Source: Microvirga tunisiensis
Lineage (GTDB): Bacteria > Pseudomonadota > Alphaproteobacteria > Rhizobiales > Beijerinckiaceae
Direction of reading: 5' to 3'
Assembly: GCF_009296175.1 (NCBI RefSeq)
Contig: NZ_VOSK01000001.1
Coordinates: forward strand, 62,001 to 126,000
DNA: 64,000 nt
Part shown: in pieces, positions 42,344 to 63,228 of the stretch
How the letters are laid out: each line of letters starts with the position of its first letter
How positions within the stretch are numbered: position 1 is the first letter of the stretch
Notes under the pieces: model-generated
Seen by the model: only the letters and a program-made list of their open reading frames with translations
Told to the model about the DNA's origin: nothing
Databases searched by the model: none
Made by a program: the position numbers and the translations under genes

Positions 42344-43237
42344 GTGCTCCGCGGGAATGTGAATGACCTTGTTGCGTTCTTAGCCGTCGCTCGAGAGCTT
42401 AGTTTCACAAAAGCAGCAGCGAAGATCGGTGTCTCACAATCGGCCCTGAGCCATACCCTCCGCCTGCTTGAGGCGCGGCTTGGCATCCGCCTCCTCACAC
42501 GCACGACACGGGCCGTCTCCCTTACGGAAGCCGGCGAGCGCCTGCTTGAGAGCATCGGGCCGCACTTCGATGAGATCGAGGCCCAAATGGAAGCCCTCAG
42601 CGAACTGCGCGACAAGCCGGCTGGGACCATCCGCATTGCAGCATCCGACTATGCGATCAGGTTCGTCCTCTGGCCGAAGTTGCGGAAGTTCCTCCCGAAC
42701 TACCCAGACATCAAGGTCGAACTCGTTCAAGATAATGGGCTCACCGACATCGTTACCGAGCGTTTCGAAGCCGGCGTGCGCATGGGCGAGCATCTCGCCA
42801 AGGACATGATCTCCGCCCGGATCAGCCCGGACTTCCGCATGGCGGTCGTCGGCGCGCCATCCTACCTTGCCAACCAGCCAACACCGCTTCACCCCAAGGA
42901 GCTCGTCGGCCATAAATGCATCAACTTCCGCCTTCAGACATCGGGCGCATTGTACGCGTGGGAATTCGAGGAGAATGGCCGCGAGATCAAAATTCGTGTT
43001 GAGGGCCAACTGGCCTTCACCAACAGCTTCGATGTCCTGGAGGCGACACTCGATGGCTTCGGCCTGTCCTACATGGCGGAGGAGATCGTCCGACCATACC
43101 TTGAGCAGGGACGGCTTGTGCGCGTCCTGGAGGAGTACTGTCCTTACTGGGACCCCTACTATCTCTACTATCCGAGCCGCCGGCAGTCGTCGCCGGCCTT
43201 CGCCGCCGTGGTGGAGGCACTGCGCCATCGGGGGTGA
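42344..43237 (+). CDS. LysR-family transcriptional regulator, copy 1
   Basis: A 297-residue regulator with a GTG start. The winged helix-turn-helix reads LSFTKAAAKIGVSQSALSHT, followed by LLTRTTRAVSLTEAGERLLE. The effector-binding domain follows (PAGTIRIAASDYAIRFVLWP, DFRMAVVGAPSYLANQPTP, YYLYYPSRRQSSPAFAAVVE). It is closely similar along its length to the regulator at 49262-50155 and to the remnant at 26757. Both should recognise the same ATGA-N7-TCAT box. It faces the broken DUF4405 gene at its 3' side. Likely regulator of the boxes in regions 3 and 4. Confidence 0.94.
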   Translation: MLRGNVNDLVAFLAVARELSFTKAAAKIGVSQSALSHTLRLLEARLGIRLLTRTTRAVSLTEAGERLLESIGPHFDEIEAQMEALSELRDKPAGTIRIAASDYAIRFVLWPKLRKFLPNYPDIKVELVQDNGLTDIVTERFEAGVRMGEHLAKDMISARISPDFRMAVVGAPSYLANQPTPLHPKELVGHKCINFRLQTSGALYAWEFEENGREIKIRVEGQLAFTNSFDVLEATLDGFGLSYMAEEIVRPYLEQGRLVRVLEEYCPYWDPYYLYYPSRRQSSPAFAAVVEALRHRG

Positions 43238-45560: not shown

Positions 45561-46016
45561 ATGGCAACACTCGTAGTGAATGGCGCACGAAAATCCTTCG
45601 ATGGCGATGAGGAGATGCCGCTCCTATGGTACTTGCGTGATGAACTAGGCCTGACTGGCACGAAGTTTGGTTGCGGCATCGCCCAGTGCGGGGCCTGTAC
45701 CGTGCACCTCGATGGCACTGCGGTTCGGGCTTGTGTGACCCCAATGGCAGCTGCATTGGGTGCCACAGTGACAACGGTGGAAGGTCTTTCGCCGGACGGT
45801 AGTCACCCTGTTCAAGTTGCTTGGAGAGACCTCAACGTATCGCAGTGCGGCTACTGCCAGGCCGGCCAGATCATGCAGGCCGCGTCGCTCCTCAAGGACA
45901 ACCCGAGCCCGAGCGACGAGGACATCGACAGCACCATGAGCGGCAACATCTGTCGGTGCGGGACATACCCGCGCATTCGCGCTGCTATCAAGCAGGCCAG
46001 CACGGGAGGTCGTTAA
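45561..46016 (+). CDS. iorA: 2Fe-2S subunit of an isoquinoline 1-oxidoreductase-type enzyme (IorA)
   Basis: A 151-residue two-cluster protein. The plant-type motif is [17 protein letters not shown] then ACV; the helical-domain motif is [13 protein letters not shown] and [17 protein letters not shown]. It has no signal peptide and likely rides out with IorB, which has a Tat signal. It carries electrons from the molybdenum site of IorB to an outside acceptor; no FAD subunit gene is present. Its stop overlaps the iorB start (TAATG). No strong ribosome site is visible. Substrate could be an N-heterocycle or an aldehyde. Confidence 0.92.
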
Positions 46017-49102: not shown

Positions 49103-49219
49103 TCAGAAGCCAGTGATGCTGAGTGCACGCGCGGAGGCAATCTACAAATTACGCGCTGCATCGGCCAAAGTGGGTGCGGTTTCATCAGCCGCTGCGACGC
49201 ATGCCGTTATGAGCTCGGC
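49103..49219 (-). pseudogene. Fragment of an MLE-family gene
   Basis: Thirty-nine minus-strand codons read AELITACVAAADETAPTLAD then AARNL, a TAG, IASARALSI and TGF. They match AQQVPITVMADESAPTLADA, ARELWTGSARALSI and TRTGF of the intact enzyme encoded at 19177-20280, with a three-residue gap. It is a decayed relic of a second enolase-superfamily gene, not a close duplicate. It carries an internal stop and lacks both ends. Confidence 0.8.
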
Positions 49220-49261
49220 TCATCAATCTCACCTGAAGTTGAAGGATGGGCCATCATTGTT

Positions 49262-50155
49262 TCAGCTCCGATGGCGCAGGGCATCGACGACCAAGTTGAA
49301 GGCCGCAGAGGATTGCCGACGGCTTGGGTAGTACAGGTGGTATCCCGTCCACGACGGGCACCAATCCTCGAGGACTCGCTCGAGGTGCCCGGAGGCGATG
49401 TGCGGCAACGCCATGTCCTCCGGCACATGGGCGAGCCCAAAGCCATCCACCGCGGCATTCAAGATCTGGAAGATGCCGTTGAACACGAGTTGTCCCTCGA
49501 CCCGGACAGCCAGCTCGTGTCCGTCCCGTTCGAACTCCCAGGCATAAAGCCCACCATAGGTGGGAAGGCGCAGGTTGATGCAGGTATGGCCGAGAAGGTC
49601 CTGAGGGGTTCTGGGCCGTGGTCTGTTGGCGAAGTATGACGGTGCTCCGACCACCGCAAAGCGGACATCGGAGCTGATGCGCACCGCGATCATGTCCTTG
49701 GCAACCTGCTCGCCGAGGCGCACGCCCGCGTCGAACCGCTGCTCGACGATGTTCGTCAGGGATTGATCGAGGCCGATCTCAACCTTGATGTCAGGGTAAC
49801 CGGGAAGAAATTTTCTGAGCTTCGGCCAGAGGACCGTCTCGGTGGGATGATCACCCGCTGTGATCCTGATCGTGCCGGCAGGCTTCTCCCGGAACTCGCT
49901 CAATCCGTACAGCTCGGCCTCGATCTCGGCCAGCCTGGGACCTGCCGTCTGGAGCAGGCGCTCCCCCGCGTGAGTGGGCGCCACGCTGCGGGTGGTCCGC
50001 GTCAGGAGCCGCACGCCCAATCGCTCCTCAAGGCCACGCAAGGTGTGACTCAGGGCTGATTGGGAGACGCCGAGCTGCGCGGCGGCCTTCGTGAAGCTCC
50101 GCTCGCGTGCAACGGTCAGGAAGGCGATCAGGTCATTGACGTTCCCGCGCAACAT
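49262..50155 (-). CDS. LysR-family transcriptional regulator, copy 2
   Basis: A 297-residue regulator with an ATG start. MLRGNVNDLIAFLTVARERS and FTKAAAQLGVSQSALSHTLR form the helix-turn-helix region, almost identical to copy 1 at 42344. The effector domain (PAGTIRITAGDHPTETVLWP, INLRLPTYGGLYAWEFERDG, YHLYYPSRRQSSAAFNLVVD) is more diverged, so the two may sense different ligands while sharing one DNA site. It is divergent from the MFS gene at 50331. A LysR-type box ends two bases before its start. Confidence 0.94.
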   Translation of the reverse strand: MLRGNVNDLIAFLTVARERSFTKAAAQLGVSQSALSHTLRGLEERLGVRLLTRTTRSVAPTHAGERLLQTAGPRLAEIEAELYGLSEFREKPAGTIRITAGDHPTETVLWPKLRKFLPGYPDIKVEIGLDQSLTNIVEQRFDAGVRLGEQVAKDMIAVRISSDVRFAVVGAPSYFANRPRPRTPQDLLGHTCINLRLPTYGGLYAWEFERDGHELAVRVEGQLVFNGIFQILNAAVDGFGLAHVPEDMALPHIASGHLERVLEDWCPSWTGYHLYYPSRRQSSAAFNLVVDALRHRS

Positions 50156-50157
50156 TC

Positions 50158-50200
50158 ATGAATTCCACTCATAGGTCCATTCACGTCTTAGCACCTAATC
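50158..50200 (+). promoter_or_regulatory. LysR-type box in the lysR/MFS divergent region
   Basis: ATGA-ATTCCAC-TCAT (50158-50172) lies two bases from the LysR start codon. Reading toward the MFS gene, CTAATC follows after 22 bases (50195-50200). It can repress lysR and activate the MFS promoter from one site. Confidence 0.7.
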
Positions 50201-50330
50201 GACGGGAGGGGTACAGCCTATGTTCAGGCTCGTAGCCATGCACCAATAGGCTCCGGAGACACTCCCCGCATAGCTCCCTTCGCTCGCCTCGGGTCCATCC
50301 CGAAGCGAACAACGTTATTACGAGGCCCCA

Positions 50331-51530
50331 ATGACCGTGGGATATGCTTCCCCTTGCGACACGATACCCGAGCGGGCGCCTGCATGGGGGGCGGTCCTTG
50401 CCATGTCGCTATGCTGCATGGTGCTCGTCGCCTCCGAGTTCATGCCGGTCAGCCTGCTGACACCCATTGCCGCCGACCTTCACATGACCGAGGGCCAAGC
50501 CGGGCAGGCGATCTCCGTCTCAGGCATCTTCGCGGTGCTCACCAGTCTGTCCATCTCGGGCCTGACGTCCCGATGGGATCGGCGCACCGTCCTGCTCGTG
50601 TTGGCCCTCTCGCTGATCGTCTCTGGAACGGTCGTGGCCCTTGCGCCGAACTACACGATCCTAATGGTTGGCCGAGCGGTCCTTGGCATCGCCATCGGCG
50701 GGTTCTGGTCGATGTCGGCCGCAGCGGTCATGCGCTTGGTGCCGAAGGACAGCGTGCCTCGTGCCCTGGCGGTCCTGCAAGGCGGGACTGCATTGTCCTC
50801 CATCGTCGCCGCGCCGCTTGGGAGCTTTCTTGGTGGGTACATCGGGTGGCGCGGAACCTTCTTCTGCGTGGTGCCTCTGGCAGCCATTGCGTTAGTGTGG
50901 CTACTGATGAGGTTGCCCTCCATGCATGCCGGGCGGCGGACCGGCTCAGCGAACGTGTTCAGGCTGCTTCGCAGGCCAGTGGTGGCCTATGGCATGGCGG
51001 CGATCACGCTGTTCTTCATGGGTCAGTTCGCGCTGTTCACTTACCTGCGACCGTTCCTTGAGATGGTGACCCACGTCGACGTTCCGACCCTGTCGCTCAT
51101 CCTGCTGCTTCTGGGTGTGACCGGCCTCGTTGGGACCACCCTCATCGGATCCTTCCTGAAGAACGGTATGTATGGCGTGATGATCGCGATTCCACTTGCA
51201 ATGGCAGGGATTGCCGTTGCCCTGATCACCTTCGGGAACTGGCTTACCGGAACGGCATTCCTGCTCGGGGCATGGGGCCTAGTGGGCACTCCGGCACCCG
51301 TGGCGTGGAACACTTGGCTCACCCGGACCTTGCCCGAGGACGCGGAAGCCGGCGGCGGACTGATGGTGGCCGCCATCCAACTGGCGATCACTCTGGGCGC
51401 GACCATTGGCGGCCTCCTGTTCGACGTGAGCGGCTATCAGAGCACCTTCAGTGCGAGCGCAGCCATGCTGGCCGCTGCAAGTCTCATGGCGTTCGTGACG
51501 CAGCGGGCGGGATCATCCGCACGCACGTGA
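50331..51530 (+). CDS. MFS exporter (DHA1, AraJ/chloramphenicol-efflux type), copy 1
   Basis: A 399-residue protein with 12 membrane spans. Signature pieces are ASEFMPVSLLTPIAADLHMT, the loop motif SGLTSRWDRRTVLLVL (motif A type), VGRAVLGIAIGGFWSMSAAA and ALFTYLRPFLEMVTHV. Family members export sugars, drugs or arabinose-like compounds with H+ antiport. About 60 percent identical by eye to the MFS protein at 56505. It heads a run of exported CMD, cupin and alcohol dehydrogenase genes and is divergent from lysR copy 2. Confidence 0.93.
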   Translation: MTVGYASPCDTIPERAPAWGAVLAMSLCCMVLVASEFMPVSLLTPIAADLHMTEGQAGQAISVSGIFAVLTSLSISGLTSRWDRRTVLLVLALSLIVSGTVVALAPNYTILMVGRAVLGIAIGGFWSMSAAAVMRLVPKDSVPRALAVLQGGTALSSIVAAPLGSFLGGYIGWRGTFFCVVPLAAIALVWLLMRLPSMHAGRRTGSANVFRLLRRPVVAYGMAAITLFFMGQFALFTYLRPFLEMVTHVDVPTLSLILLLLGVTGLVGTTLIGSFLKNGMYGVMIAIPLAMAGIAVALITFGNWLTGTAFLLGAWGLVGTPAPVAWNTWLTRTLPEDAEAGGGLMVAAIQLAITLGATIGGLLFDVSGYQSTFSASAAMLAAASLMAFVTQRAGSSART

Positions 51531-51607
51531 GCACCGCATGGGCCGTCGCAATCCACGCCGTCGAGCCACTTAACCCCACCACCTTACAGGAAAAGAACCG
51601 TCTCACC

Positions 51608-52399
51608 ATGAAACTGCTGGTCGCCACATTCGTATCCCTCGCACTGGCAGCCCCTGCCCTTGCCCAAGGAAGCGCTCCTATGTCCACACCTCTTCAAAAC
51701 GCTTCGGCGCTCTCGGTGGCCGATATCGGGTCCGTCTCCCCGGCCCTCGGCCGATACGCCAAGGAAGACGTTGCTGATGGCCTGTGGCAGCGCCCTCAAC
51801 TCTCCCGTCGCGACCGCAGCCTCGTGACGGTGGCGATCCTGATCGCACGCAACCAGACGCTGGACCTGCCGCATTACATCAACCTTGCCCTCGACAGCGG
51901 CGTGACACCGCGCGAGCTCTCCGAGACGATCACGCACCTCGCCTTCTACGCGGGCTGGTCGAACGCCATGGCGGCGGTTGCCGTCACCAAGGACATTTTC
52001 GCCCAACGCCGGATCGAGCCGGATCAGTTGCCGACCGCATCGCCGCAGCTCCTGCCGCTGAACGAGCAGGCGGAGGCAACCCGGGTCGCGAGCGTGCAAC
52101 GCCTTCTCGGAACCGCCGCTCCTGGCCTCGACCAGTACACCACCGATCCGCTCTTCAAGGACGTGTGGTTGCGCCCCGACCTGTCGCCGCGTGACCGCAG
52201 TCTTGTGACCATCACGTCGCTAATGGCGAATGGGCAGGTGGCCCAGCTCGCGGGTCATTTGAACAGGGCCTTGGACAACGGCCTGACGCAAGAACAAGCC
52301 GGCGAGGTGGTGACGCAGATCGCCTTCTATGCCGGCTGGCCCAATGCCTTCTCAGCCGGTCCGGTTGTCGCCGAAGTCCTCAAGGCTCGGTCCAACTAA
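51608..52399 (+). CDS. Exported carboxymuconolactone decarboxylase-family protein, two domains
   Basis: About 263 residues from the ATG at 51608. A signal peptide (MKLLVATFVSLALAAPALAQ) is unusual for this family. Two CMD repeats follow: WQRPQLSRRDRSLVTVAILI with THLAFYAGWSNAMAAVAV, and LRPDLSPRDRSLVTITSLMA with TQIAFYAGWPNAFSAGPVV. No Cys is present, so it is not an AhpD-like peroxidase. It lies 78 bases after the MFS gene and before a cupin gene; such MFS-CMD-cupin-ADH sets recur in rhizobia. The role is probably periplasmic detoxification, but unproved. Confidence 0.88.
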   Translation: MKLLVATFVSLALAAPALAQGSAPMSTPLQNASALSVADIGSVSPALGRYAKEDVADGLWQRPQLSRRDRSLVTVAILIARNQTLDLPHYINLALDSGVTPRELSETITHLAFYAGWSNAMAAVAVTKDIFAQRRIEPDQLPTASPQLLPLNEQAEATRVASVQRLLGTAAPGLDQYTTDPLFKDVWLRPDLSPRDRSLVTITSLMANGQVAQLAGHLNRALDNGLTQEQAGEVVTQIAFYAGWPNAFSAGPVVAEVLKARSN

Positions 52400-52440
52400 C
52401 CAAAACTGTCTCGCCCGCTCCTATCCTGCAGGGATTCAAC

Positions 52441-52911
52441 GTGAAGAACACACTCATCGCAGCCACCATGACCGCGGCCGCACTCGTCGGTGAGCCGGCC
52501 AATGCGAAGGAGATCCAGGTTTTCCCGAGCGGCTCCTCGCCGTCGGTGGTCGCCGATCCGAAAAATTTCTCGGGTCAGGTGGTGGTGGATCTTCTCACGC
52601 CGCCATCCGTCGAGATCCCGGCCTCGTCGGGTCTTGTGACTTTCGCTCCACGCGCACGCACCGCCTGGCACAGCCATCCGGCTGGGCAGATGCTCATCGT
52701 CACGGCAGGAAGGGGCTGGGTCCAGCGGGAAGGCCAGGCTCGCCAGGAGATCACGTCCGGCGACGTCGTGTGGATCCCAGCCAGGATTAAGCACTGGCAT
52801 GGCGCAACCGACACCAACGGCATGAGCCACGTCGCGATCACGTACATCCAAGACGGAAAGAACGCCGATTGGATGGGGTTGGTCACTGACCAGGAATACG
52901 CCACCCGATAG
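52441..52911 (+). CDS. Exported cupin protein (mandelonitrile-lyase-like)
   Basis: A 156-residue protein from a GTG start. A probable signal peptide (MKNTLIAATMTAAALVGEPA, NAK) precedes one cupin domain. The metal site reads AWHSHPAGQMLIVTAGRGWV and GDVVWIPARIKHWHGAT: His, His, Gln in place of Glu, and a later His. The Gln variant is typical of manganese cupins such as the (R)-mandelonitrile lyase group. It lies 42 bases after the CMD gene. The substrate is not known. Confidence 0.88.
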   Translation: MKNTLIAATMTAAALVGEPANAKEIQVFPSGSSPSVVADPKNFSGQVVVDLLTPPSVEIPASSGLVTFAPRARTAWHSHPAGQMLIVTAGRGWVQREGQARQEITSGDVVWIPARIKHWHGATDTNGMSHVAITYIQDGKNADWMGLVTDQEYATR

Positions 52912-53038
52912 CGGCGCATTCAACCGGGATGGGATCCATGAACACGGCTCGTCATGGCAGGTTCGGCTGAACTCTGCTCGCCTGACCACCCTTCCGCAGA
53001 CGCCCATCCAATGATCCAAGCAAAGAAAGTAAGCCTCC

Positions 53039-53884
53039 ATGACTGTAAAGGCTTTTGGTGCCTACGCCGGAGACAAGTCGCTCGAACCGATGGACATCAA
53101 CCGTCGGTCAGTCGGCCTCCACGATGTCGGCATCCAATTCGCTTTCTGTGGCGTGTGCCACTCTGACATCCATCAGGTTCGTGCCGAATGGGCGGGCACC
53201 CTGTACCCTTGCGTGCCGGGGCACGAGATCGTCGGCCGGGTGTCGGCGGTGGGCGCGCGTGTGACGAGCCACAAGGTCGGCGATCTGGTCGGCGTGGGGT
53301 GCATCGTCGATAGCTGCAAGCGTTGCGACGATTGCAGCGACGGGTTAGAAAACTACTGCGACCACATGGTCGGCACCTACAATGGCCCCACGCCCGATGC
53401 GCCGGGTCATACGCTGGGAGGCTACTCGCAGCAGATCGTTGTGCACGAGCGCTACGTGCCGCGCGTCAGTCACCCTGAAGAGCAACTGGCTGCCGTCGCG
53501 CCGCTGCTGTGCGCTGGGATCACCACCTACTCGCCGCGCGCCACTGGAACGTTGGACCCGGCCACAAGGTGGGCGTCGTCAGCATCGGCGGCCTGGGCCA
53601 CATGGGCATCAAGGTCGCGAACGCGATGGGCGCGCACGCGGTGGCGTTCACCACCTCCGAGTCGAAGCGCGAGGCCGCCAAGGCATTAGGCGCGCATGAG
53701 GCCGTCGTCGCCCGCAACGCGGACGAGATGGCAGCGCACGCCAAGAGCCTCGACTTCATCCTCAACACGGTGGCAGCACCGCATGACCTCGATGCCTTCT
53801 TCGCGCTGCTCAAGCGCCTCCGGCCGCAAGCAAGGCAGATAGAACCCGGGCGCTGGAGAGTAGATAGCGTCCAAACCCGGTGAA
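53039..53884 (+). pseudogene. Zinc-dependent alcohol dehydrogenase, frameshifted and 3' truncated
   Basis: Frame 1 (53039 on) gives CGVCHSDIHQVRAEW, YPCVPGHEIVGRVSAVGARV, the structural-zinc cysteines CKRCDDCSDGLENYC and PLLCAGITTYSP. One base is missing near 53537 (CG where CTG is expected). Frame 2 then continues RHWNVGPGHKVGVVSIGGLG, HMGIKVANAMGAHAVAFTT and DFILNTVAAPHDLDAF. Similarity ends at FALLKR (about 53820), and the last third of the YahK-like cinnamyl-alcohol-dehydrogenase family is gone. It ended the MFS-CMD-cupin operon. Loss may leave an aldehyde or alcohol step incomplete. Confidence 0.88.
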
Positions 53885-56168: not shown

Positions 56169-56504
56169 GGGCGGTCCGGTCTGGTCTCGATCCGGGTGGC
56201 GACACTTGCGAGAGACCAGAACCGTGCATCGGGCTATGCGCGATCAGCAGAATTCATGAATCTAGTTCATGACGGCATGCAGGTTATACCGACTAGTTGC
56301 GGAGCCACGCCTTGACTATGTTCTAGAGCACAGGATCGATCCCGTAACTGATGGGCGAAAGTCCTCCGCGCCTTCGCTCTGTCACGAAAGGGCGGAGTTT
56401 CAAGACGCCGGATACGTGCGCTCAAATTCATGAAGCGCCTCCGGTGGTCAGACCGCTCGGCGGACACTTGCGTCCAGCACCGTAAGCCTGGAAGTGGAAC
56501 GGAA
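56169..56504. other. Intergenic region before MFS copy 2
   Basis: About 340 bases with no gene. It holds the LysR-type box and -10 at 56256-56298. Confidence 0.5.
56256..56298 (+). promoter_or_regulatory. LysR-type box and -10 upstream of MFS copy 2
   Basis: ATGA-ATCTAGT-TCAT (56256-56270) with CTAGTT after 22 bases (56293-56298). The downstream context (GACGGCATGC, then ACCGACTAGTTGCGG) repeats that at 54686. The MFS start codon is 207 bases beyond. Confidence 0.7.
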
Positions 56505-57958: not shown

Positions 57959-59293
57959 ATGCTGAAATCTATGATGAAACCTCACACCATCATCAACACT
58001 GTCCAGATGTCGTCCAGTGGCGAAAGAGCGCTAGCAGATGCACAGCGGAAAGGCTTTCGCTTGGCTATCGTCGGGAGGACAATTGCAGTTGGCGCTTTAG
58101 CTTTTGTCTTTCTCGCCGGTTACCATTTTCCATTCAATGTTGCAATCTGGCTTCTCACTTTGGCTTTGGCGTTAAGCGGTTTGATGGCATTGAAGACCGC
58201 CGGTACAAGGCTGGAAAATATGGTGCGCTATGTATTCTTCTTGCTGGATGCCGCTCTCGTCTCTGCAATAATTGCCTTCGCTCCTTTGAGCGGCGGGGAT
58301 GATATACCGCAGAACCTGACATTCTTCACAAGCAGAACTCAGTTTTACTATGTCGTAATCACAGCATCGATTCTCACCCTGTCGCCGGGCCTCGTGCTAT
58401 GGACAGGTGGATGTTGTGTGGCTGGCCTTGCCCTCTCCACGATCTGGATCGCGGCTGGCATGGAGAGCATTCTGAATTTTGCTGACCTGCCCATCGCACC
58501 GTCTCGCGAAGACTTATATCGCATTGTCCTTAATCCAGATTTCTTAGGCACTGAGTCTCGCATCGAGGAAATGCTGATTCTTTCAGCAGTGACGGGCATC
58601 GCGGCGATTGCAGTCCGCGGTGCTCGGCTCGTGGTACTTGCCAGAATCTCTGCAGAAGAAAAGCGCAGGCACACGCAACGACTTTTTGGCAAGTACCTGC
58701 CCGCTGCTGTAATTCCTGACCTCAAAAGCGACGGGCATTTGAGTCCGCAAATGCGGGAAGCGACCCTTTTGTACGCTGACGTTGAAGGATTCACGTCCAT
58801 TTCAGAGAAGCTGCAGCCAGAAGAGATTATTCACCTCCTGAACGAGCTATTCACTATGGTGAGCGAGAAAATAACAATGCGAGGCGGGTTGGTAGTTAGC
58901 TATTTCGGTGATGCGGTAATCGCAGCATTCAACTCACCCCTGCCCCTCGAAAAACACGAATTTAGCGCAGTTATGGCTGCGAGGGATATCCTCAAGACGC
59001 TGGAAAGTTCGGAATTTCGTAGCCACCGTCTGCGTCTGCGCATCGGAATAGCCACCGGTCTAGTCGCCGTAGGGACGGTCGGGAGTGAGGAGCGGTTATC
59101 CTTTACTCATTACGGCGACACCGTGAACCTCTCCCAGCGACTGGAAGCCTTAAACAGGGAAACAGGAACAGATTGTCTGATGTGCGGCGCGACCTACACT
59201 GCCGTTCAGCACGAAATAGAGGGCATTCGCTCTCTGGGGTTTCATTCACTTCGCAACAAGCAGCGCGGGGTCGAGGTCTATGCGCTTGAGTGA
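57959..59293 (+). CDS. Membrane-bound class III adenylate/guanylate cyclase
   Basis: About 444 residues from the ATG at 57959; nearby in-frame ATGs (57953, 57971, 57974) are equally possible, as none has a clear ribosome site. Six membrane spans occupy roughly residues 30-240 (for example LAFVFLAGYHFPFNVAIWLL, YVFFLLDAALVSAIIAF, LILSAVTGIAAIAVRGARLV). The catalytic domain follows: ATLLYADVEGFTSISEKL (metal Asp), GGLVVSYFGDAVIAAFNS (second Asp), RIGIATGLVAVGTVG and YGDTVNLSQRLEALNRETG. It makes cyclic AMP or GMP in response to a membrane signal. It is the intact relative of the split gene at 28600-32398. Confidence 0.92.
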   Translation: MLKSMMKPHTIINTVQMSSSGERALADAQRKGFRLAIVGRTIAVGALAFVFLAGYHFPFNVAIWLLTLALALSGLMALKTAGTRLENMVRYVFFLLDAALVSAIIAFAPLSGGDDIPQNLTFFTSRTQFYYVVITASILTLSPGLVLWTGGCCVAGLALSTIWIAAGMESILNFADLPIAPSREDLYRIVLNPDFLGTESRIEEMLILSAVTGIAAIAVRGARLVVLARISAEEKRRHTQRLFGKYLPAAVIPDLKSDGHLSPQMREATLLYADVEGFTSISEKLQPEEIIHLLNELFTMVSEKITMRGGLVVSYFGDAVIAAFNSPLPLEKHEFSAVMAARDILKTLESSEFRSHRLRLRIGIATGLVAVGTVGSEERLSFTHYGDTVNLSQRLEALNRETGTDCLMCGATYTAVQHEIEGIRSLGFHSLRNKQRGVEVYALE

Positions 59294-59755
59294 AGGCACA
59301 CAGATACTTACACGCTTGACGGCAACCCGTCTACGGAACGGGTAGGCACCATAGGCATTACTGCGGACCGCCGGAATACCCGGGCCGGATATCGTTTCTT
59401 ACGCGAGGCTCTGGGGACGACGTGCACTTATCCTCCTTCCTCCATCGTCCTCACGACACCCTACCGCGCCAAGCACCCCAAAGCCCGCTTAACAATCCAG
59501 TCTCAGACTTAGACAGCGGTGCTCGAGATGTTGGACAATCTCAGGATCGATGCAGGACTTATGTGTTTCGACAACGAACCGCTTGGTCAGGTGCGCTTCG
59601 TACGTGACATAGTTGATCGTTCGCATTCTCAATTCTTGCTGAGCTTTTTTCGTGAGTGGGTCTCTAGACTTCGCCGACGATCGAGGAAGCGCCCGATTTC
59701 CCTTCACAGGTGCCTAAGCTTGAGAAATTCCACAATTCGACGACGCTGCTGCGGA
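59294..59755. other. Intergenic region with no recognised gene
   Basis: About 460 bases between convergent genes. Short frames on both strands (59422-59607, 59489-59707) have no recognisable domain. Confidence 0.4.
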
Positions 59756-59783
59756 AGGAGGGCGGGACCCATCCCGCCCTCCT
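59756..59783 (-). terminator. Perfect 12-bp hairpin after the alpha/beta hydrolase gene
   Basis: AGGAGGGCGGGA, loop CCCA, then its exact complement. It lies ten bases past the minus-strand stop at 59793. Probable terminator for that gene and possibly for convergent transcripts. Confidence 0.7.
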
Positions 59784-59792
59784 CGGTACGAA

Positions 59793-60755
59793 CTATTTGA
59801 GATGTTCGTTGAAGAACTCAGAGATCCGGGTGAAAGGAATCTTGTCCATGCGATCATATAGGTCGACGTGGTTGGCGTCCTTTATAATCATAAGTTCCTT
59901 GGGATCAGCCGCGGCCTCGTGAGCATCCTCGCTGAAGTAACGTGAGTGCGCGTTGTCACCCGCGATTAGCAAGATTGGCCGTGGTGAAATCTCCGCAATG
60001 TAGGTCAGAAGCGGCATGTTCATGAAGGACAATGGACTAGTTACCGCCCAGCCCGTGGTCGAATTCACCGAGCGCTCGTGGAAGCCGCGAGGCGTCTTGT
60101 AGTAGTCGAAGTACATTCTGGTGACAGGATCATCGACGCCGTCCAAGGTTTCAGGCAATCCTCCTGCCAGCGCAGGAGCCTCGCCTTCGGCGTCAGCCCA
60201 ACGCTGCTGACTCAGCTTTTCCAGCATCTGCGCGCGCTGCTCGGCCGTAAAGCCATCGTAATAACCCCGCGCCATCACGCGGGACATATCATACATGCTG
60301 GTAGTCGCGACAGCTCTGATACGCTTGTCTGCGGCGGCGGCATTCAATGCCATGCCCGCAAAGCCGCAAATGCCGACGATTCCGATACGGTTACGATCAA
60401 CGGCAGCGTGCCTACCGAGATAGTCAACAGCGGCGCTAAAATCCTCAGTATTGATGTCAGGAGACGCCGTTTTGCGTGGCTCGCCACCGCTTTCCCCCGT
60501 GTAGGACGGATCGAATGCGAGCGTGACATAGCCATGTTCCGCCATAGTCTGAGCGTACAGGCCGGAGGACTGTTCTTTCACAGCGCCAAACGGACCGCTT
60601 ACGGCGAGCGCCGCCAACTTCTGGTTGCCACGAGCTTTGGGTAGATACAAGTCGGCCGCAAGCGTGATGCCATAACGATTCTCGAATGCCACCTTCTGGT
60701 GATCGACCTTGTCGCTGCGCGGGAACGTCTTGTCCCACTCCTGGATAAATTGCAT
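59793..60755 (-). CDS. Alpha/beta hydrolase with Cys nucleophile (YcjY/dienelactone-hydrolase-like), copy 1
   Basis: A 320-residue hydrolase read from the ATG at 60755 (GGAG nine bases upstream). The nucleophile elbow is GICGFAG with Cys130. The acid and base are likely Asp in ILLIAGDNAHSRYFSED and His in KDANHVDLYDRMDK. The N-terminus EWDKTFPRSDKV aligns with residues 56-67 of the Tat-exported copy at 62071. Just upstream, in another frame, is a Tat-like leader (60756-60904). So the present protein may be cytosolic, cut off from an ancestral signal by an indel. A similar exported paralogue and a decayed one follow. Confidence 0.82.
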   Translation of the reverse strand: MQFIQEWDKTFPRSDKVDHQKVAFENRYGITLAADLYLPKARGNQKLAALAVSGPFGAVKEQSSGLYAQTMAEHGYVTLAFDPSYTGESGGEPRKTASPDINTEDFSAAVDYLGRHAAVDRNRIGIVGICGFAGMALNAAAADKRIRAVATTSMYDMSRVMARGYYDGFTAEQRAQMLEKLSQQRWADAEGEAPALAGGLPETLDGVDDPVTRMYFDYYKTPRGFHERSVNSTTGWAVTSPLSFMNMPLLTYIAEISPRPILLIAGDNAHSRYFSEDAHEAAADPKELMIIKDANHVDLYDRMDKIPFTRISEFFNEHLK

Positions 60756-60904
60756 GGTATTTTCTCCGAACGCGGTGATTGCGCAATAATGGCCTGGACG
60801 CTCATCAGGATTGATGTAGTTGCAATGGGAGAGCCTTGGATGAGTGTCCTGCGCAATGGCCCGTTTGTCAGTGCAAGGGCGTCAGCATGCGGTTTGTTGC
60901 CCAT
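60756..60904 (-). pseudogene. Orphaned Tat-like leader of alpha/beta hydrolase copy 1
   Basis: From the ATG at 60904 (AAGGAGGG five bases upstream) the frame reads GPLRRTLIQGSPIATTSILM then SVQAIIAQS, resembling the leader RRNLLKMTGTGMAALSV...AVAQS of the copy at 62071. It runs on out of frame past the hydrolase start. An indel near 60760 would fuse it to EWDKTF. This shows the gene was exported, or that the assembly has an error here. Confidence 0.6.
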
Positions 60905-60965
60905 CGGACCCTCCTTGAATTTCTCTGATCAAAGCAGGGCTAAAATATCTCCAAACCTGTGAGCA

Positions 60966-61008
60966 GATTAGATCAGTTATTTGAGTTGCAGTTATGAACT
61001 GGAGTCAT
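60966..61008 (-). promoter_or_regulatory. LysR-type box and -10 upstream of hydrolase copy 1
   Basis: Read on the minus strand: ATGA-CTCCAGT-TCAT (61008-60994), then after 22 bases CTAATC (60971-60966). The linker AACTGCAACTCAAATAAC resembles AACGACATGCAAAACAAA at 61961. It points toward the leader start at 60904. Confidence 0.7.
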
Positions 61009-61732
61009 CAATCCGCCGGAGCGGTGGCCGATTTGGGTCTTCTGGACGTTGTTGACCGTAACCGTATTGATGTGCCGGGCGTTTGCGGCAATGGCGGCCT
61101 GAACCTGAGCGCCACTGCCGCCGACAACCGCATCAAGGCTGTTGCAAGCTCCATGATGTACGATATGGCTCGACTGTGGGTCACAGGCTTCCAGGACGGC
61201 TACACGCCGGAACAACGTTCCAAAGCCTTGAAGAATACGAGGCTTCGGCGCTGAGAAGACGCGGAAAACGGCACTCGCCTGCGTCAGCCACAACGTCGTA
61301 TTCGATGAAACCAGCAATCTCACCTGCACAGTGGTCATCAACCTGGAGACGCTGCCTGAAAACGCAGACCCGATTCCGGTAGAGTTTATAGGTTTACTGT
61401 GCAAGACAAAGCTTCCGTCCGCGCTCTGTGAACTCCACGGCACTCTGTCGATCACGACGCCGATGGCGTTCATGACCTTCCCGCAGTTCACCTACATCAA
61501 GGAAATTACGCCACGCCCAGTGTTAATTATCGCCGGCGAGACGGCACATTTGCGCAACTTTGCCGAAACCGCTTACCAGGACCCGGCCCAGCTCAAGGAC
61601 CTGGTCGATGTGATGGGTGCCGACCACGTCGATCTGTATGACAAGCAGAACGGCAAGAGCTCGTTCGACAAGCTAAAAGCGCTTTTCAAGAAGAATTCTG
61701 AATCAGGAGAAACGTTCAGCTTGACGATTTCA
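61009..61732 (+). pseudogene. Alpha/beta hydrolase copy 2, decayed
   Basis: Frame A (to 61254) gives VDRNRIDVPGVCGNGGLNLS, AADNRIKAVASSMMYDMARL and DGYTPEQRSKALKN. Frame B (61331 on) gives LSITTPMAFMTFPQFTYIKE, ITPRPVLIIAGETAHLRNFA, ADHVDLYDKQNGKSSFDKLK. All match copies 1 and 3 in order. The N-terminal 150 residues are missing, there is at least one frameshift near 61245-61330, and the elbow has GVCGNGG. It is nonfunctional. Its lost 5' end sits over the box that serves copy 1. Confidence 0.85.
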
Positions 61733-61945
61733 CGTCCGGCCTTGCGGGGAAATACTGAAGCAAATCGGGATGGATGATTACAGGGATGTGATCATAGTAT
61801 CCGGTTCGTGGGAACGAGTCCGAGTCCGGATTATTTCGCTAAGGCATAGATAGGCGATGGGCTCAGCGGCGACTGGCGCGGCAAGGCTGCATGTGGTTAT
61901 GAGCCCTGAAACAATCGGAGCGATCTGCCCCGACGCGCACCGTTT

Positions 61946-61988
61946 ATGAGCTAGATTCATAACGACATGCAAAACAAACGACCTAATG
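61946..61988 (+). promoter_or_regulatory. LysR-type box and -10 upstream of hydrolase copy 3
   Basis: ATGA-GCTAGAT-TCAT (61946-61960) and CTAATG after 22 bases (61983-61988). The linker AACGACATGCAAAA nearly repeats that before xdhC. The hydrolase start is 83 bases beyond the hexamer. Confidence 0.72.
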
Positions 61989-62023
61989 TCGGCGCCTGGT
62001 GTCATCTAAATTTCCGCCATGAA

Positions 62024-62047
62024 GGGCTTATCCCGCGGGATAAGCCC
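62024..62047. repeat. 24-bp perfect palindrome in the 5' leader of hydrolase copy 3
   Basis: GGGCTTATCCCG joined directly to its reverse complement. It lies 35 bases after the -10 hexamer and 23 before the start codon. It could be an operator for another dimeric regulator or, as RNA, a stem near the ribosome site. Confidence 0.75.
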
Positions 62048-62070
62048 AGGACACGTACGGAGGCACAGCG

Positions 62071-63228
62071 ATGAACAGGCAAAATGCGGATGAACGTGCC
62101 GTGGACGAGCATGCGGGCTTCGACCTCGGCAGGCGCAACCTCCTGAAAATGACGGGCACCGGTATGGCCGCGTTGAGCGTTGGTATGGCTGCCTCGGGTC
62201 AAGCCGTCGCGCAGTCGCAAGTGAAACTCAGTGACGCTTGGGACAAGACCTTCGCCAAAAGCGATAGGGTTGACTACAAGAAAGTCACCTTCAAGAACCG
62301 CTACGGCATCATCCTAGCGGCAGACCTGTACCAGCCGAAGAACGCCAGTGGCAGAATGGCGGCGATTGCCATCAGCGGCCCGTTTGGTGCGGTGAAGGAA
62401 CAAGCGTCAGGCCTTTATGCACAAACCATGGCCGAACGGGGTTTCGTCACGCTGGCGTTCGATCCTTCCTATACCGGGGAAAGCAGTGGCGAAACGCGCA
62501 ACGTGGCGTCGCCGGACATCAACACCGAGGATTTCAGCGCGGCCGTGGATTTTCTTGGCCTTCAGCCGAACGTTGACCGCGACCGCATCGGTGCCATTGG
62601 CATTTGTGGTTTCAGCGGCATGGCACTTACTGCCGCCACCAGCGATTCGCGCATCAAGGCGGTCGCTACAGCTTCCATGTATGACATGTCTCGCAGCATG
62701 AGCCGCAGCCATAAAGACGGTTATACGATGGAGCAGCGCCACAAGGTTATTAACTACATCAGCCAGCAACGCTGGATTGATGCGGAAAGCGGCAAACCTG
62801 CGCTGGGTTATCACGAGGTTCCGTTCGACGAGAAGGGGAATATCCTGAAAGGGCAGCGTGTCCTTCCTGAAAGCCTGCCCGCAGATCCTGACCCGGTTCT
62901 GGTCGCTTTCTTCAACTACTACAAAACCCCGCGCGGTTTCCATCCAAGGGGCATCAACTCGACAACGGCGTGGACGGCCACGACCCCCATGTCGTTCTTC
63001 AGCTTTCCGCTGTATGCGAACATCGAAATGATTTCCCCGCGCCCGGTTCTGCTGGTGGCGGGAGAAAACGCCCACTCACGCTATTACTCTGAAGATGTCT
63101 ACAAGGAGGCTTCCAATCCCAAGGAATTGGTGATTGTGCCCAATGCAGACCACGTTGATCTTTATGACCAGATGGACAAGATCCCGTTTGATAAGCTGAC
63201 GTCGTTCTTCAAACAGCATCTGGCTTGA
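62071..63228 (+). CDS. Tat-exported alpha/beta hydrolase with Cys nucleophile, copy 3
   Basis: A 385-residue protein with a twin-arginine signal (GRRNLLKMTGTGMAALSVGM, cut near AVAQS). The hydrolase core has GPFGAVKEQASGLYAQTMAE, FDPSYTGESSGETRNVASPD, the elbow GICGFSG with Cys179, VLLVAGENAHSRYYSED and PNADHVDLYDQMDK with the likely His. The family (YcjY-like, DUF1100-type neighbours) has no clear substrate; esters or lactones are probable. Upstream are a full LysR-type box and a 24-bp palindrome. It is the intact, exported member of the three copies. Confidence 0.92.
   Translation: MNRQNADERAVDEHAGFDLGRRNLLKMTGTGMAALSVGMAASGQAVAQSQVKLSDAWDKTFAKSDRVDYKKVTFKNRYGIILAADLYQPKNASGRMAAIAISGPFGAVKEQASGLYAQTMAERGFVTLAFDPSYTGESSGETRNVASPDINTEDFSAAVDFLGLQPNVDRDRIGAIGICGFSGMALTAATSDSRIKAVATASMYDMSRSMSRSHKDGYTMEQRHKVINYISQQRWIDAESGKPALGYHEVPFDEKGNILKGQRVLPESLPADPDPVLVAFFNYYKTPRGFHPRGINSTTAWTATTPMSFFSFPLYANIEMISPRPVLLVAGENAHSRYYSEDVYKEASNPKELVIVPNADHVDLYDQMDKIPFDKLTSFFKQHLA

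Follow-up and report, generated by a model that had tools for sequence, protein, structure and literature searches.

The window analysed here, a stretch of 64,000 nucleotides of contig NZ_VOSK01000001.1 of Microvirga tunisiensis, carries at 59793-63228 three alpha/beta hydrolase sequences of one family; copies 2 and 3 lie on the forward strand and copy 1 on the reverse strand (Table 1). In copy 1, a Tat-type leader and an apparently complete enzyme lie next to each other in different frames. Did this arrangement arise through a move of the enzyme from the periplasm to the cytosol, as suggested by an earlier examination of the letters alone (the sequence-only reading), or is copy 1 a gene that has begun to decay?

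Table 1. Features of the hydrolase locus; positions are counted from the first base of the window
Feature	Position	Strand	Remarks
Copy 1, mature alpha/beta hydrolase	59793..60755	-	320 aa; from internal ATG, GGAG 8 bases upstream
Copy 1, Tat-type leader in other frame	60756..60904	-	RR at 18-19, AQS at 41-43
Frame break zone, from AQS (leader) to WDKTF (enzyme)	60738..60776	-	read against relatives
Copy 2, pseudogene	61015..61696 (start approximate)	+	5'-truncated, frame change, in-frame TGA
Copy 3, intact hydrolase with in-frame Tat-type leader	62071..63228	+	385 aa

Judged by their matches, the three copies are members of the known family of PA2218 (2hdw) and YcjY (5xb6). Over the length of the mature protein, residues 1-319 of copy 1 match 2hdw with an E-value of 5.2e-143, and residues 40-384 of copy 3 with an E-value of 4.3e-130; both copies match YcjY more weakly, and both score above the Pfam cut-off for Peptidase_S15. 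The structure model of copy 1, based on 46 aligned sequences, has a mean pLDDT of 90.1 and superposes on 2hdw with a TM of 0.92 and on 5xb6 with a TM of 0.83. PA2218 of P. aeruginosa resembles copy 1 in fold, in the GICG site, in overall sequence (66% identity in the fold search) and in its mature start, LQLTQEWDKTF; YcjY of E. coli, at 33% identity, has the same fold, with the Cys and His sites aligned. C130 of copy 1, which aligns with the serine of the lipase GIS motif, is found in all 46 rows, and H296, near the end, in 45 of the 46, so that the designation of copies 1 and 3 as Cys-nucleophile hydrolases, already put forward in the sequence-only reading, is a good inference. The profile of the N-acyl-homoserine lactonase UilS (NF047920) gave 60.7 and 58.8 bits, far below its curated cut-off of 400.

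The three relatives do lie side by side, but the earlier count of three copies is incomplete for the genome, and they are not recent duplicates. Contig C220 encodes a relative 93% identical to copy 3, and contig C611 one at 38% identity. A recent triplication at this locus can be rejected, given that copies 1 and 3 share 64% identity and both have closer relatives in other genomes. A twin-arginine leader in frame with the enzyme, the feature by which exported members were recognised, is present in copy 3 (GRRNLLKMTG), consistent with the proposal that this protein is exported by the Tat route, and is absent from copy 1. The close relatives of copy 3 in two genomes of the same genus are at most 94% identical to it in the mature part and 90-92% identical with the leader included. 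In copy 2, homology starts at about mature residue 107, the first 106 or so mature residues being absent, and the remainder is spread over two frames, one piece running from 61015 to about 61270-61290, where the frame changes, and the other from 61289 or 61442 to 61696; together with the single in-frame TGA, these lesions bear out its earlier description as a pseudogene. Copy 2 is 40-57% identical to its relatives among the matches listed. In the tree described below, its branch is very long and its identity to other rows does not exceed 45%; it is an old wreck and no fresh duplicate.

The leader of copy 1 belongs to a frame of 101 aa (60904-60599, reverse strand) that is separate from the mature frame. 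Its ATG is preceded, five bases upstream, by AAGGAGG, and it encodes a 15-residue stretch with a mean hydropathy of 1.79. The leader frame overruns the internal ATG at 60755 by 157 bases. A scan for the combination of ribosome site, start, RR motif and hydrophobic stretch identified three sites in the real 64 kb and three sites in total in twenty resampled 64-kb sequences, and on this basis a chance leader is rejected for copy 1; the other sites in the window are a plausible leader at 46016 and one within a transporter gene at 50922. The leader noticed earlier just upstream of the enzyme, in another frame, is genuine.

The ancestry of this leader was traced through relatives, among them the best 80 of 590 confirmed matches in a genome scan; one comparison used 45 of these 80 loci. 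One reading of leaders excluded matches below 150 bits and eight loci that duplicate L109 or copies from the own genome. In a tree of 79 rows (quick search; L024, L091, L098, L110 and rows below 62% identity or with no more than 330 bits were excluded), copy 1 groups with 13 rows at an SH-aLRT of 80, and all 13 members of this sister clade possess an in-frame RR leader behind an ATG. Orthologues without any leader, which according to the sequence-only reading would refute its interpretation, were searched for in this clade, and none was found there. A broader survey, in which the translated stretch before the enzyme was measured and start codons were not individually checked, showed that 111 of 115 rows have an in-frame stretch of leader or hydrophobic character, 109 of them above the hydropathy threshold and two narrowly below it but with an RR motif; L024, which is copy 3, was excluded, some rows are repeats (L028 and L125 represent a single gene, and L041 is identical to L120), and one, L004, is a relative from the own genome. 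Two further rows, L044 (Thioclava) and L102 (Chakrabartyella), appear naturally leaderless, and two are frame-broken: in L098, the leader is split by the break, and in L110, the leader is in frame and the break lies just within the mature part. A split leader is too rare among these rows to be a habit of the family. Because a leader is in frame throughout the sister clade, and a leader or hydrophobic stretch in nearly all rows of the survey, the leader of copy 1 is ancestral and was cut off on copy 1's own branch, to which we assign the break because the mature part is free of decay. The nearest relative of copy 1, in genome G478, is only about 77-78% identical, and therefore the break is not closely datable. 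No near-identical plasmid relative was detected; the best match in protein mode reached 76%, and in DNA mode 80% of the three copies was nowhere covered.

In the mature part of copy 1, neither the conserved columns nor the changes along its branch revealed a loss of constraint. Across 110 of 117 rows, conservation reaches 95% or more in 98 columns, and copy 1 deviates in two of these, each time conservatively (F to Y and K to R), which places it at rank 19 of 110. Parsimony assigns 27 nonsynonymous and 28 synonymous changes to its branch, rough counts given the high divergence; under the same rule, L115 has 13 and 4 (Fisher p 0.056 against copy 1), and under a laxer rule, L109 has 27 and 24 and L116 has 17 and 20. 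The mature frame is intact and shows no decay, a state that fits a gene still in use after the break as well as one that no longer is.

Taken with the two frames and the ancestral leader, the intact mature part allows us to infer how copy 1 would be translated, in what amount, and with what location and fate. Copy 1 would at first have been a Tat-exported enzyme, whose leader was later separated from the mature domain by a frameshift on the branch of copy 1. Translation probably still proceeds mainly from the strong leader start and would yield the leader followed by 58 residues of another frame, whereas the intact enzyme could be made solely from the internal ATG, would stay in the cytosol and would probably be present in small amounts. 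We consider it fairly probable that copy 1, made redundant by exported relatives, is a pseudogene at an early stage whose leaderless product is expressed weakly at most, and that it does not represent a settled relocation. We favour decay because the strong original start has been retained and the frame read from it extends across the internal start; because intact relatives of the exported type, copy 3 and the copy on C220, are present in the same genome and make copy 1 redundant; and because there is further decay nearby, in copy 2 and, 6 kb away, in the alcohol dehydrogenase gene (53039-53817), which is frame-broken too and is shortened compared with that of Microvirga terrae.

The break could instead be an error of sequencing or assembly, in which case the true gene would be one continuous frame and its product exported like that of copy 3. 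The genome is a draft of 8.8 Mb in 1022 contigs with a contamination estimate of 8.78%, a run of AAAA is located at 60763, and two other family members in public records, L098, whose contig is titled with a coverage of 3.29, and L110, are broken near the same place, possibly through errors too. However, the AAAA run is just four bases long, and there is no near-identical copy (identities are 63-65%) that could confuse assembly. Moreover, eight genes of the window that were matched in one piece to relatives (7503 bases, copies 1 and 3 included) contain no break, and rpoB and rpoC are unbroken, with open frames of 1384 and 1399 aa. An error is thus unlikely, although it ranks ahead of the remaining alternatives.

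Next in order, and likewise unlikely, is a functional relocation, whereby the break gave rise to a cytosolic enzyme that functions, is produced from the internal ATG and is maintained by selection. In favour of this reading are the fully conserved mature part and the existence of leaderless relatives, namely, L044, L102 and YcjY. The internal start was described in the sequence-only reading as usable and endowed with its own ribosome site. The GGAG is indeed there, and an equally good 4-base site precedes 8 of 189 internal ATGs in 17 other frames of the window. However, 9 of 45 ATGs at the corresponding position in relatives have an equal site, although nearly all of these relatives keep an in-frame leader; the GGAG may therefore be inherited and is only weakly indicative of a new start. 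In addition, a weak predicted fold pairs part of the site. The old strong start, retained together with a frame that runs through the internal one, also argues against relocation, as does the decay in neighbouring genes. Searches of 200, 397 and 385 genomes at thresholds of 1e-60, 1e-146 and 1e-150 (the own genome is in each list, and overlaps are possible) did not reveal this split in any other match for which the leader was read.

A more specific form of relocation, in which a single frameshift created both a decoy leader peptide and a selected leaderless cytosolic enzyme with its own site, beside an exported paralogue, appears more doubtful again; it would be a change of compartment through one mutation, observed at an early stage. 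A cytosolic form as such is viable in the PA2218/YcjY family, because L044 and L102 appear leaderless and YcjY, given as 306 aa in PMC3614548, has no room for such a leader; a move of copy 1 from periplasm to cytosol is to this extent possible. The same study describes ycjY as the gene of an uncharacterised predicted hydrolase, over-expression clones of which cause filamentation of E. coli, and places ycjZ next to it in one clone, and PMC4909307 reports that ribosome profiling shifts the ycjY start site. The match of YcjY begins at residue 4, so that there is no leader comparable to the one that copy 1 lost by frameshift, whereas the PA2218 chain has 49 residues before the shared part, where the in-frame leader of copy 1 is gone. 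In literature searches on leader loss and enzyme relocation, no title or abstract opening among the matches listed dealt with such a case. If the cytosolic form is real, copies 1 and 3 would constitute a natural exported/leaderless pair in one cell, informative as to how enzymes switch compartment.

Programmed frameshifting, joining leader and enzyme to produce exported and cytosolic forms from one gene, is highly improbable despite the preservation of both frames and their overlap in an open stretch: the stretch from leader to domain contains no classical slip heptamer (the sole X XXY YYZ in the leader frame, CCCAAAG at 60641, lies inside the domain), the predicted RNA structure at both starts is not unusual (z of 0.75 and 0.15), and relatives have one frame.

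An early pseudogene, the likelier reading of copy 1, would be a case of routine redundancy and decay within a mosaic of hydrolase modules; a family of the PA2218/YcjY type and a frameshift that cuts off a leader are both of ordinary kinds. It would also carry a warning for annotation, in that an intact frame of 320 aa can hide a lost leader.

The suggestion that the copies are under the same regulator found no support. A sigma-70-type scan of 59290-62100 gave no match on the strand of copy 1 and one on the forward strand, against a shuffle mean of 1.6. The nearest LysR gene profiled in the window, at 49262-50155, is 9.6 kb from copy 1. The copies, at most about 64% identical, resemble modules that elsewhere include different LysR genes, and this linkage also argues against a common regulator; cross-regulation of the copies is possible. 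PA2218 adjoins the gene of the transporter OpdE, and YcjY that of the regulator PgrR. A literature search on OpdE with a LysR and a hydrolase retrieved nothing related.

Hydrolases of this family travel in LysR-MFS clusters. The gene set of the clusters of Gemmobacter fulvus and Microvirga terrae (LysR - MFS - cupin - hydrolase - alcohol dehydrogenase) is also found in the window, but scattered: compared with those clusters, the modules are rearranged, the hydrolase copies lie away from the LysR genes and the dehydrogenase is shortened. The association of the hydrolase types with different LysR types in other genomes makes a mosaic of several modules the best reading of the window. In G015 and G022, the neighbour of a copy 3-type hydrolase is a 42344-type LysR (93% and 85%). 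In M. terrae, the hydrolase next to a 49262-type LysR (87%) shares 61% identity with copy 3 and 69% with copy 1, and a LysR 58% identical to that at 49262 accompanies the copy 1 type in G489 and Gemmobacter. The copy 1-type hydrolase of G478 has a LysR with 74% identity to that at 42344 at a distance of 1.4 kb and, about 6 kb away, an MFS protein that shares 82% identity with the one encoded at 56430 in the window.

The window resembles a plasmid of Microvirga terrae at the DNA level (85-88% similarity over 49191-50229 and 50331-53817), and this similarity ends approximately at the position of the hydrolase gene of that plasmid. Because the similarity breaks off there, the window probably has a rearrangement joint at this place, entered at 49191. 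The alcohol dehydrogenase of the hydrolase cluster is damaged: its frame is broken at about 53.53 kb and, compared with Microvirga terrae, it lacks the final part.

Elsewhere in the draft genome, contig C220 (locus L125) carries a close relative of copy 3, the intact plus-strand hydrolase of the window. This gene is preceded by frames that we take to be DNA polymerase-like and followed by a presumably cyclophilin-like one. Given that the contamination of the M. tunisiensis draft genome is estimated at 8.78%, the relative may originate from a second strain.

Family members in other genomes include both apparently leaderless and broken genes (see table). Shortly upstream of the hydrolase of Chakrabartyella piscis lies a frame that we assume encodes a cupin. 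Each of the two frame breaks, that in Neorhizobium EC2-8 and that in the Flammeovirgaceae MAG, could stem from a sequence error. The Phocaeicola faecicola member, with 25 deviations at 100 conserved columns, is probably a broken gene.

Hydrolase-family loci and cluster genes compared
Feature	Locus	Coordinates	Source	Basis
Hydrolase, 93% relative of copy 3	L125	6205-7356	M. tunisiensis, contig C220	
Gene after copy 3 relative	L125	7475-7984	M. tunisiensis, contig C220	
Hydrolase, apparently leaderless	L044	4001-4951	Thioclava sediminum	
Hydrolase, apparently leaderless	L102	4001-4957	Chakrabartyella piscis	
Frame break near leader-enzyme junction	L110	3846-4030	Neorhizobium EC2-8	
Frame break near leader-enzyme junction	L098	about 480-600	Flammeovirgaceae MAG	
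Hydrolase, frame ending early	L091	4001-4702	Phocaeicola faecicola	
NAD(P)-dependent alcohol dehydrogenase, hydrolase-cluster gene set	window	53039-53817	M. tunisiensis	comparison with Microvirga terrae

Another good Tat-type leader in the window starts at ATG 46016, within a longer TTG frame from 45821, and belongs to what is presumably a molybdenum hydroxylase large subunit.
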